DNA from: Branchiostoma lanceolatum
Taxonomy: Eukaryota > Chordata > Leptocardii > Amphioxiformes > Branchiostomatidae
NCBI RefSeq assembly: GCF_035083965.1
Contig: NC_089740.1
Span: forward strand, 6,073,552-6,137,551
Direction: 5' to 3'
Length of the DNA stretch: 64,000 nt
The translations under genes and the position numbers were made by a program. Below are positions 23,027-26,200 of the stretch, piece after piece (within the stretch, counting starts at the first letter, position 1; each line of letters starts with the position of its first letter). Below the pieces are notes generated by a model. The model did no database searches. It was not told the DNA's origin and was given only the letters and a program-made list of their open reading frames with translations.

Positions 23027-23201
23027 GTTGCGGGCAGAAAAGGTTTCCCCCACGTTATCTATGCTCGGATTTGGAGATGGCCCGATCTGCATAAAAACGA
23101 GCTCAAACATGTCAAATATTGCCAGTATGCTTTCGACTTGAAGGCTGACAGTGTGTGTGTAAACCCCTACCATTATGAGAGAGTGGTATCTCCCGGAATA
23201 G
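23027..23201 (+). other. Smad4: Smad4 MH1 exon, copy a (canonical-like)
   Basis: 175 nt, preceded by a strong polypyrimidine acceptor (tgtttttttcactcag) and followed by the donor gtgagt. It encodes 58 residues plus one base, from [14 protein letters not shown] to the VVSPGI end. This copy is closest to vertebrate Smad4: Gly, Arg, Tyr, Gln, Leu, Ser and Gly at exon positions 6, 14, 31, 33, 38, 42 and 57. The zinc ligands equivalent to human Cys115, Cys127 and His132 and the DNA-contacting Lys88 are present. Confidence 0.95.
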
Positions 23202-26200
23202 GTGAGTTACAGACGATCGTATTCTTCTATTCTCTTCGCTGTAGGTAGCGGGACGGAAAGTTTTCCCACACGTAATATACGCCAAGATATGGCGCTGGCC
23301 CGACCTGCACAAAAACGAGCTAAAACACGTCAAGTTCTGCAAGTACGCTTTCGACGTTAAGGCGGACTATGTCTGTGTGAATCCATACCATTATGAGAGG
23401 GTAGTGTCGCCCGCGATCGGTAAGTAGGGTACAGGACAGGTTGTGAAGTGACTGTGGTGCATGTTTTGAAGTTCACTATAAAAGAAGTATGATCTTCTGA
23501 GTTTGTTTGCATCCACAAGTAGACTAGCTTTATCCAAGTCTCACAGTTTTAAATTTTTTTGGCGATGCCTCAGGAGTGAAGGCATTTTTTTCTGACTACG
23601 TTTGTGTGTATATTTTCCACTATTGCAGCTTTATCATATGCACATACCTATTTTACATTTCCTGCCAGATTCTATAACTAAACATATTGGCACTCCCTTT
23701 TACTTTTGTTCTTAAAGTTGGTTTTATGTTTGAATCTAGAATGTACAGAAAAGAGGTGTTTTAGAAGAGACTTATGTCTAATGTATGCAGAGCTGTGAAA
23801 GGCATTGTCTTGTTGATTTTAATTCTTTTCAGAAAGTTGAAGAAATAATTGTTGAGAATGTTGTTGTGTTTTTTGTTGCAGACCTTTCTGGACTGACATT
23901 GCAGCACACAGGTTAGTACACGTTGTATTCTTGCCACTGTGTAATCGAGAGTGCCAAAAGTCTCTTCTGCCCCCCTCCCCTTTGTTTCCTCTCCCCTTCC
24001 CAGGGCTGTCTCCAGTACCGTCCCTTTTTTTTTTTCAAATTTACTTGTTGGGACGGACAAAAATTTCACCATATTTGCCCAAAAAATCTGAACTTCATGA
24101 CAAGAAACTGATGAAAATGTTTTTTCGTAAAGCTTGAAATGATGGATTTAGCAGTGAAATTCAACGACATGGGTTTCCAAAGAATGAGTGGGACGGAAAC
24201 AAATTAAAGCTGGAGATAGCCCTGACTGTGACTCACAACTTTATACCGGAACTACTATTGGTTACCAGCAGTATTGACTACCAGGGTCAGCGGATGAATG
24301 TTGCGTACTGCGACCTTTAATCAACACACATGTTGTACAAGTCCATATGTATGTTATTGCGAGAGCAGTCTGATTACATTAAGGTGGTTTAAGGTCACCT
24401 TGTCCCTGGTGACAGCACATTGCCTGTGGACATGACCTTGAGTTGAACTTCCCACATCCTTGGAGCTAACAGAATCGTCCAGGGAACCGCCAGCGATTGG
24501 AATCTCACAACAAATTTCCCAAAACAGTCCCCAATGTGAACTGCGTTTTCAGGCCATTCAATGCAAACAGTTGTGAACGTCAACAACATCTCTTAGTCTT
24601 ACTGACACATAAACATTTACAGGTCTGGGATAGCAAAACCTGTTTTGATTTTAACGGCCAGGAAACCTTTAGCGGCTCCAATCTCACGACAAATTTCCCA
24701 AAACAGTCCCGCATTAATTGTGTTTTCAGGCCAATCAATGTTAACAGTTGTGAACATCAAGAAAACAACATCTCTTAGTGTTACTGTCACATTTTTTTTA
24801 CAGGTTTGCATATATAGCAAAACCTATTTTGATTTCGTTGGCATCCATGAGCGCCGGCATGTTGGATTTTTTTTTAAAATGCTATGCATACAGGTCTCAT
24901 CTGAAGCATGTGTAAACACATAATGCAATGTAGTTACTCAAAAGGTAAAGAATATAGAGATTGGCAATTTCTAAAGATCTCTTAAAAATTTTGTGACGCC
25001 TTCTACATGAATTGAGTGTAAGGTTTTGCCTCACATTTTGTCCGAAGCCATGTGTCGAAAACTAAAAAATGATGAATATTCTTGTAACTAAAAAATGAAA
25101 AGGGTCAAATAAAAAAGTGCTTTATTCCCAACCAAGGAAATGATAATGTCATCTTCTTCAGGGCAATGATGAATAAATACTTAATGTTTGGGGCCGCATT
25201 ATTAGCAGCGACACCTAGCTGCAGTGCAAAGTGAACCAGTTATCATTACCGTAAAGAAGATGACAGACGGTCATTGAAACGTCTACTGTTATCATTTCTT
25301 TGGTTGTGAATAAAGAACTTATTATTGTTATTGAATCATTTGCCAACTGAAACTATTCGGAACACAGAATAAAAAGTGGTGTTTACAAAACCTAATTTTT
25401 TTTCACAGCTCCTCCGAGCAGGCTAGTGAAGGATGAGTTTGTTCACGAGTGTGTTCAGGTGGAGGGGAACCAGTATAACTCACCGGGAACCTCCGACTCC
25501 TCCCAGTCCATCCAGACTATACAACACACCTCCAACCACTCACAGAGTCGCCCCGACAGCTTCCCACATCCCATGTTAACAGCGCCACACTCAGGTAGGT
25601 TATAGAAAATAGCAGTGCAGCAGTGCCCTCTTGCAGTCTATTGAAGTACTGCAGGCATATGCTGTATTATTTGGGTTTTTTCATCACTATATCTCAGTGT
25701 TGACAGAGTCGTCCTGGAAGTTTCCCTCATCTCATGTTATCAGAACCACACTCAAGTAGGATAAAGAAAAGCAGTGCAACAGTGCCCTCTAGCAGTCTTT
25801 TGTAGTACTGCAGCAATATACAGCACTGTACTATACTATACTATTGCATCTCAGAGTTGACAGAGTTGTCTTGACAGCTTCCCTCATCCCATGTTATCAG
25901 CACCATGCTCAGGTAGGATTTAAAATATAGCAGTGCAGCAGTGCGCTCTTGCAGTCTCTTGAAGTACTGCAGGAATATACCTTACTATTCTGTTGTATCT
26001 CAGAGTGGACAAGAGTTGTCCTGACAGACTCCCACATCCCATGTTATCAGCACCACACTCAGCTATGGTAAAAAAACAGCAGTGCAGCAGTGCCCTCTCG
26101 CAGTCTATCGAAGTACTGCAAGCGTATAATATTCTGTTGCATCACTGCACTCTGACTAACTGTGAGTCAGACTTCATCCATTTTGCAAGGACCAGACATG

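Follow-up and report, generated by a model that had tools for sequence, protein, structure and literature searches.

The window analysed here, 64,000 nucleotides (nt) of the Branchiostoma lanceolatum contig NC_089740.1, contains SMAD4 sequence on its + strand at 23027-32982, beginning with the second half of the MH1 domain and ending with the stop codon. Two adjacent exon copies, a and b, encode that half of MH1; they precede a 30-nt exon at 23882 and are, judging from their sequences, very probably functional and mutually exclusive exons. SMAD4 is the common partner of the receptor-activated Smads (R-Smads) in TGF-beta and BMP signalling and, as a co-Smad, lacks the C-terminal SSXS phosphorylation motif. 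The protein encoded in the window ends in GGDPRHLD, without that motif.

The identity of the gene is shown by several comparisons. With copy b included, the protein of the window matched the Pfam profiles MH1 (69.8 bits, half of the domain) and MH2 (238.8 bits), and the MH1 profile matched the two copies at 79.9 and 75.5 bits. Among PDB entries, both copies matched SMAD4 chains best (128.5 and 113.1 bits), and no chain of SMAD3 or SMAD5 scored above 82.3 bits; the original prediction, made from the sequence before this analysis, had assigned the pair to the second half of SMAD4 MH1, and the segment comprises residues 84-141. Residues are numbered as in human SMAD4, which is also the numbering of the B. 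belcheri protein P0015. Copy a shares 55 of 57 aligned residues with the MH1 of human SMAD4 (3qsv), the differences being I15 (human Leu) and A40 (human Cys) in exon positions. Alignment of the a-form protein of the window shows one difference in 508 residues from B. lanceolatum SMAD4 (P0004) and 19 in 507 from B. belcheri P0033. In a tblastn search of the window with two B. belcheri SMAD4 proteins (E 0.01 or better) the segment of residues 84-141 was found in two places only, copies a and b.

The two copies are alike in layout: they are homologous and adjacent, both are 175 nt long, both have the same phase (58 codons plus 1 nt), and 43 nt separate them. Coordinates, phase, spacing and the acceptor at 23882 are exactly those given in the original prediction. 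The copies differ at 40 of the 175 nt, with 6, 5 and 29 differences at codon positions 1, 2 and 3. Seven codons have replacements, 25 are identical and 26 differ silently, so that silent differences are found in 26 of the 51 codons with unchanged residues, as counted before. The residue changes from a to b are the seven already named: Gly89Val, Arg97Lys, Tyr114Phe, Gln116Lys, Leu121Val, Ser125Tyr and Gly140Ala. The ratio of nonsynonymous to synonymous divergence (dN/dS, omega), proposed earlier as a check, is 0.09 with LWL85 (dN 0.106, dS 1.17); with NG86, dN is 0.077 and dS is beyond saturation. When the same number of substitutions was placed at random in 200,000 runs, 21% of the runs were free of stop codons, the mean number of residue changes was 25.8 and the minimum 15, and no run had seven or fewer. 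The low number of residue changes is not due to chance, because the random runs average 25.8 changes and never fall below 15. The sequences point to strong constraint on both exon copies. The earlier claim that both have been kept under purifying selection stands as regards the silent excess and the low omega; the change is asymmetric, all seven replacements being placed on copy b, as described below.

The homology between the copies forms one block of 183 nt, 78% alike (23025-23207 against 23243-23425), and no longer block was reported. It begins with the acceptor AG, reaches six bases beyond the donor and ends there. Because the similarity is confined to the exon and its splice sites, the duplication is read as old. 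Lys88, Cys115, Cys127 and His132 are conserved in both copies, which agrees with the claim that the zinc ligands and the hairpin Lys are intact, as far as the exon encodes them. The zinc ligands of SMAD4 we take to be Cys71, Cys115, Cys127 and His132. Cys71, together with Arg81 and Gln83, lies before residue 84, in the stretch of MH1 for which the window gave no match; all three are present in the B. belcheri proteins P0003 and P0015. In copy b position 89 is Val, a Lys adjoins Cys115, and a Tyr stands two positions ahead of Cys127.

The reading frame allows either copy alone to be joined to the 30-nt exon. Three other outcomes break the frame: with a and b joined, translation would end within copy b; with both skipped, it would end in the exon that follows; and with the 43-nt intron retained, it would end where copy b begins. 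The proposal that a length not divisible by three enforces exclusivity is thus borne out. Both exons, for which good splice sites had been predicted, have AG/GT dinucleotides and pyrimidine-rich tracts (read by eye, not scored by a program), and the SMAD4 splice sites inside the window look like U2-type sites, also by eye. A donor-to-branch-point distance below 50 base pairs is reported as a steric criterion for exclusive exons (PMC5740500). As the entire intron is 43 nt, any A serving as branch point is necessarily less than 50 nt away from copy a's donor, and to this extent the claim that the intron is probably too short for splicing holds. The ten further SMAD4 introns of the window range from 154 to 1562 nt. 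In the 43-nt intron only the A at position 8 qualifies as a branch candidate of TnAy type; it precedes exon b by 36 nt. For copy a, a full yTnAy candidate stands 25 nt upstream of the exon. The donors are TAG/gtgagt for copy a and TCG/gtaagt for copy b. Read by eye, the branch candidate and the donor of b are the poorer ones, which points to copy a as the default and to a need of help for copy b. A TGCATG hexamer, presumably an RBFOX-type motif, follows copy b and is the only one on the + strand in 22000-25400, with 29 on the + strand of the whole window. It is a candidate control site for copy b, a lead and not evidence. Taken together, exon anatomy and conservation strongly support mutually exclusive splicing of a and b, on those two grounds only.

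Competing RNA structures were considered as a device for exclusivity and rejected: 12 pairs of inverted repeats were found in 22000-25420, none of them resembling a docking and selector set. One pair, 22700-22725 and 23847-23872 (73% complementary), brackets both exons. Scans of the window with Rfam at the gathering threshold and for tRNA were empty.

Three protein searches gave 1638 matches (copy b as query, E 1e-8 or better), 568 and 259 matches (shorter queries), and the best 120 of each were taken. The resulting 331 distinct proteins, selected by similarity to copy b and including fragments and near-identical entries, are a biased sample. Among the best 120 of the 1638 matches to copy b, the B. 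belcheri annotation P0003 came first at 148 bits, followed by a match at 137 bits; no further b form was found among the best 120 of 568 and the best 120 of 259. P0003 carries copy b, and copy a is carried by P0015 and P0033 (B. belcheri), P0016 and P0004. The exon segment of P0003, CKFAFDIKADYVC...SPAI, lies between the usual flanks GRLQ and DLSGLTLQ. P0003 differs from P0033 by 17 substitutions, eight in the exon segment and nine at residues 469-480; in the latter region P0003 is also 35 residues shorter, with an odd exon model, and it starts three residues later than P0033. Because the substitutions are confined to these two segments, P0003 is taken to come from the same gene as P0033, with the alternative exon in place. 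A second copy in another lancelet, as looked for by the original prediction, is thus found at the protein level.

P0003 shares five of the seven b-specific residues with copy b of the window (positions 89, 97, 116, 125 and 140). It departs from it in having Ile and not Val at 121, Tyr at 114 as in copy a, and Phe at 117. Between the species the a copies differ by one residue and the b copies by three; a and b differ by seven residues in the window and by eight in B. belcheri. In a maximum-likelihood tree (58 columns, 30 sequences) the two b copies formed a split with an ultrafast bootstrap of 99. The split of B. belcheri and B. floridae is given as 130 million years in earlier studies cited in PMC6305399, and the same source has about 87 million years, read as the split of two Branchiostoma pairs. 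Since the same-copy distances are smaller than the a-b distances, the duplication is, judged from these residues, older than the split from B. belcheri, about 87-130 million years (PMC6305399). It would have arisen in the Branchiostoma lineage or earlier, perhaps before the Asymmetron split or even before lancelets.

The commonest residue among the 331 listed proteins is the copy a state at all seven sites: Gly89 in 328, Arg97 in 316, Tyr114 in 255, Gln116 in 309, Leu121 in 327, Ser125 in 292 and Gly140 in 317. All seven changes are therefore assigned to the lineage of copy b (7 to 0, two-sided p 0.016). Copy b thus departs at sites that scarcely vary in this set (89, 97, 116, 121 and 140), among them Gly89 in the DNA-binding hairpin. 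Elsewhere in this set Val89 occurs only in the SMAD4-like protein P0104 of the aphid Acyrthosiphon pisum, and Tyr125 only in P0277. Lys97 and Lys116 are found together in the spider protein P0040 and in P0156 and P0157, which are identical to each other there; Lys97 occurs in 14 of the 331, Lys116 in 15 and both in four, a co-occurrence above expectation (Fisher p 0.002, shared ancestry ignored). The Trichoplax SMAD4 MH1 domain, which we take to be PDB 5nm9, has Lys at 116 like copy b and, unlike copy b, Gly89 and Arg97 as in copy a. That domain is reported to bind GGCGC, as does human SMAD4 (PMC5727232).

P0156 and P0157 are SMAD4-like N-terminal proteins that are identical over 148 residues, to the LK in MH1, and then differ at 22 of 64 residues; the pattern resembles that of a further alternative 3' exon or of a recent paralogue.

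An ancient exclusive exon shared by bilaterians was also considered and was not adopted as the principal reading: the 58 columns have low signal, and P0040, isoform X3 of Uloborus diversus, keeps the spider-type Cys40, Leu38 and Ser42 (exon positions) beside Lys97, Lys116, Phe117 and Ala140, which are as in the lancelet b copy. P0040 differs from the spider protein P0061 at 3 of 58 residues in the exon segment and at 3 of the 70 residues before it, with no excess divergence. Its likeness to copy b is probably due to convergence.

The hairpin of SMAD4 (residues 75-89) is reported to lie in the main DNA-binding region, with Arg81, Gln83 and Lys88 contacting bases, and its flexibility is said to let different GC motifs be read (PMC5727232). 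In the model proposed here, the preceding MH1 exon would be joined to copy a, the default and ancestral type, or to the derived copy b, and from either to the exon at 23882. Two safeguards would operate: a branch point in the 43-nt intron would be too close to the donor of copy a for a and b to be readily joined, and double inclusion or double skipping would lead to a premature stop. Two co-Smads would result, alike in base-contacting residues, zinc site, linker and MH2 and differing in the C-terminal half of MH1; the b form would have Val for Gly at the end of the hairpin, Lys adjoining Cys115 and Tyr near Cys127. Copy b would presumably shift the stiffness of the hairpin and one face around the zinc site, and hence affinity, site choice or partner binding. 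Most likely, certain cells or stages would use the choice between a and b to tune DNA affinity, site choice or contacts with cofactors. Exclusive use, the default and regulated roles and the functional effect are what we infer from the features described above. The chances that the b form behaves differently towards DNA or partners appear about even. It is a tentative step further, possible rather than probable, that regulated splicing yields two co-Smads with differing site or partner preference, Lys97 and Lys116 together perhaps marking an alternative working state of SMAD4 that arose more than once, or an exon pair older than lancelets. If this further reading is true, one signalling pathway would have two transcriptional readouts without gene duplication.

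Several observations weigh against this interpretation. No copy b transcript was seen in this analysis, and the B. lanceolatum protein P0004, which represents a cluster of 17 members, is of the a form. Among the 331 listed proteins the b set is found in P0003 only, a genome annotation with an aberrant C-terminal stretch that may be a purely predicted model. The 58-column tree places the b copies next to the spider (split 94) and does not unite the lancelet a and b copies; therefore a lancelet origin of the duplication is not confirmed by the tree. Human cells can splice introns of 43 nt, as reported for ESRP2, where a G-rich enhancer is needed (PMC4463651), and in this respect a length of 43 nt is not absolutely too short; that enhancer is missing here, the 43-nt intron having no GGG run. 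The donor upstream of both copies lies outside the window. AlphaFold models of the b form (P0003) and the a form (P0015), built from 24-row alignments, had mean predicted local distance difference test scores of 39.2 and 39.9, too poor for a structural comparison.

Some of the same observations can be explained in other ways. In a variant of the proposed model, regarded as rather unlikely, copy b is an attenuator: its changes weaken DNA contact, and the b form still trimerises through MH2 and leaves DNA to the R-Smads or competes with the a form. Such a role would fit with the change of sites that hardly vary among the 331 listed proteins, Gly89 being the last residue of a hairpin whose flexibility is said to matter for motif reading (PMC5727232), and with the report of an Arg97 missense variant in human aortic disease (PMC10704831), although that variant is to Leu and not Lys and its interpretations conflict. 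However, Lys88 and the zinc ligands encoded by the exon are kept, and changes of this kind are tolerated elsewhere, because Val89 is found in the aphid P0104 and Lys97 with Lys116 in the spider P0040. The early stop inside copy b could instead serve as a poison device, in which inclusion of both copies gives a frame-shifted, decayed transcript that lowers the dose of SMAD4. This is improbable, since such a device needs neither the 51 of 58 residues kept, nor the zinc ligands, nor 26 silent against 7 replacement codons, and the double inclusion that it depends on is hindered by the 43-nt intron.

That copy b is an unused, decaying duplicate would agree with the failure to see a copy b transcript here and with all seven residue changes being on its side (7 to 0, two-sided p 0.016). 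Equally little probability is given to this relic, whose open frame, intact splice-site dinucleotides and strong silent excess speak against decay, as do the five of seven derived residues also present in B. belcheri P0003, across roughly 87-130 million years (PMC6305399). Lancelet genomes are reported to be highly heterozygous, at 3.2-4.2% (PMC12862219), and two alleles could have been set in tandem by the assembly, an artefact that the original prediction had itself named as a danger. With 40 of 175 sites differing, similarity that stops at the splice sites and the same two versions encoded by B. belcheri models, this explanation is very hard to maintain.

Tandem exclusive exons are already known as a class; SMAD4 is unexpected as the gene, and the SMAD case is unreported in the literature searched. 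A close parallel in kind is the pair of exons 18 and 18b of mammalian FOXP1, which like the SMAD4 pair are exclusive and replace part of a DNA-binding domain in frame; there it is the forkhead domain, with an altered DNA motif and use in stem cells reported (PMC11701043), whereas the SMAD4 pair is known from sequence only. The FGFR exons IIIb and IIIc, including those of amphioxus Fgfr, are likewise tandem-duplicated, exclusive and part of a developmental signalling gene, but alter the ligand-binding domain of a receptor and are chordate-wide (PMC5703972), whereas the SMAD4 pair is seen here only in lancelets. Splicing of SMAD2 exon 3 (the E3 insert, absent from SMAD2-beta) also alters a SMAD MH1 beside the DNA-binding hairpin; it is an exon in or out that adds 30 residues to an R-Smad (PMC6824466), while the SMAD4 pair is a swap of homologous exons in a co-Smad. 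Steric and frame-shift control, as proposed here, is also described for human clusters of exclusive exons, of which 57 (9%) have potential steric interference and 377 (60%) have lengths not divisible by three (PMC5740500).

The word SMAD is absent from the main text of that human survey and from that of a survey of tandem duplicated exon substitution (PMC9741552), and the available text of two works on tandem exon duplication in amphioxus (PMC5703972, PMC8379844) makes no mention of Smad. Exclusive exons were not found for any SMAD in openly licensed full texts, supplementary tables being outside the scope, and for Gly89 or Arg97 in DNA binding by SMAD4 nothing in such texts was on topic by title. 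The b-form annotation is already in the public B. belcheri record, where no comment on it was found. Across the animals compared, the second half of MH1 shows very little change, and a gene that keeps two versions of it would offer a natural experiment on how one co-Smad can serve several outputs. The forms are separated by one exon swap and only seven residues, five of them common to both species, and are therefore directly testable. If the reading is true, the co-Smad joins transcription factors such as FOXP1 in having a DNA-binding domain switched by exclusive exons.

The exons of the gene in the window are listed in the table. The part of MH1 before residue 84 was not found in the window by tblastn with the 83-residue N-terminal segment (best E 1.3, noise); the intron upstream of copy a is therefore probably longer than 23 kilobases, unless a very short exon was missed. 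A possible second acceptor of the last exon, 12 nt upstream, would add GVLS, and the forms with and without these residues are both found among the B. belcheri models X1 (P0033) and X3 (P0015).

Features of the SMAD4 gene in the 64-kilobase window of B. lanceolatum
Feature	Position	Strand	Description
Exon copy a	23027..23201	+	175 nt, SMAD4 MH1 second half, residues 84-141 (human numbering), ancestral-type
Intron between copies	23202..23244	+	43 nt, donor gtgagt, pyrimidine-rich tract, acceptor ctgtag
Exon copy b	23245..23419	+	175 nt, alternative version: G89V, R97K, Y114F, Q116K, L121V, S125Y, G140A
TGCATG hexamer	23458..23463	+	38 nt downstream of exon b
Next SMAD4 exon, 30 nt	23882..23911	+	takes copy a or copy b in frame
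SMAD4 linker exon	25409..25594	+	gene structure and B. belcheri match
SMAD4 linker exon	26940..27011	+	gene structure and B. belcheri match
SMAD4 linker exon	27166..27348	+	gene structure and B. belcheri match
SMAD4 linker exon	28138..28227	+	gene structure and B. belcheri match
SMAD4 linker exon	28731..28805	+	gene structure and B. belcheri match
SMAD4 MH2 exon	30368..30551	+	gene structure, B. belcheri match and Pfam
SMAD4 MH2 exon	31269..31437	+	gene structure and B. belcheri match
SMAD4 MH2 exon, Gln/Ala-rich segment	31905..32043	+	gene structure and B. belcheri match
Last SMAD4 coding exon with stop codon	32759..32982	+	alternative start 32747

Repeated sequence is found within and around the gene. 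A 159-nt tandem repeat of 3.7 copies (25542-26120) includes the end of the linker exon 25409-25594, and its downstream copies look like decayed partial copies of that exon, with a weak tblastn match at 25704-25754 (E 0.006). Large near-palindromic, foldback elements were seen by eye at 19950-20260 and 29200-30050, the second within a SMAD4 intron. Upstream of exon a, on the - strand, a 222-codon open frame (18504-19172) matches a GDSL-lipase at 24.6 bits, below the cut-off of 32.9, and is perhaps a gene carried by a transposon.

Downstream of SMAD4 further open frames lie at 49555-51787 (-) and 60600-63844 (+), which we take to resemble a RING/NHL TRIM protein and VPS72/YL1, respectively. The start of a legume-like lectin gene is found at 37630-41250 on the + strand (Pfam Lectin_leg-like on 39465-39704, 53.3 bits). 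This gene is presumably LMAN1/ERGIC-53, which in human we take to be located, like SMAD4, at chromosome 18q21; the neighbourhood of SMAD4 and LMAN1 may thus be conserved between lancelet and human.

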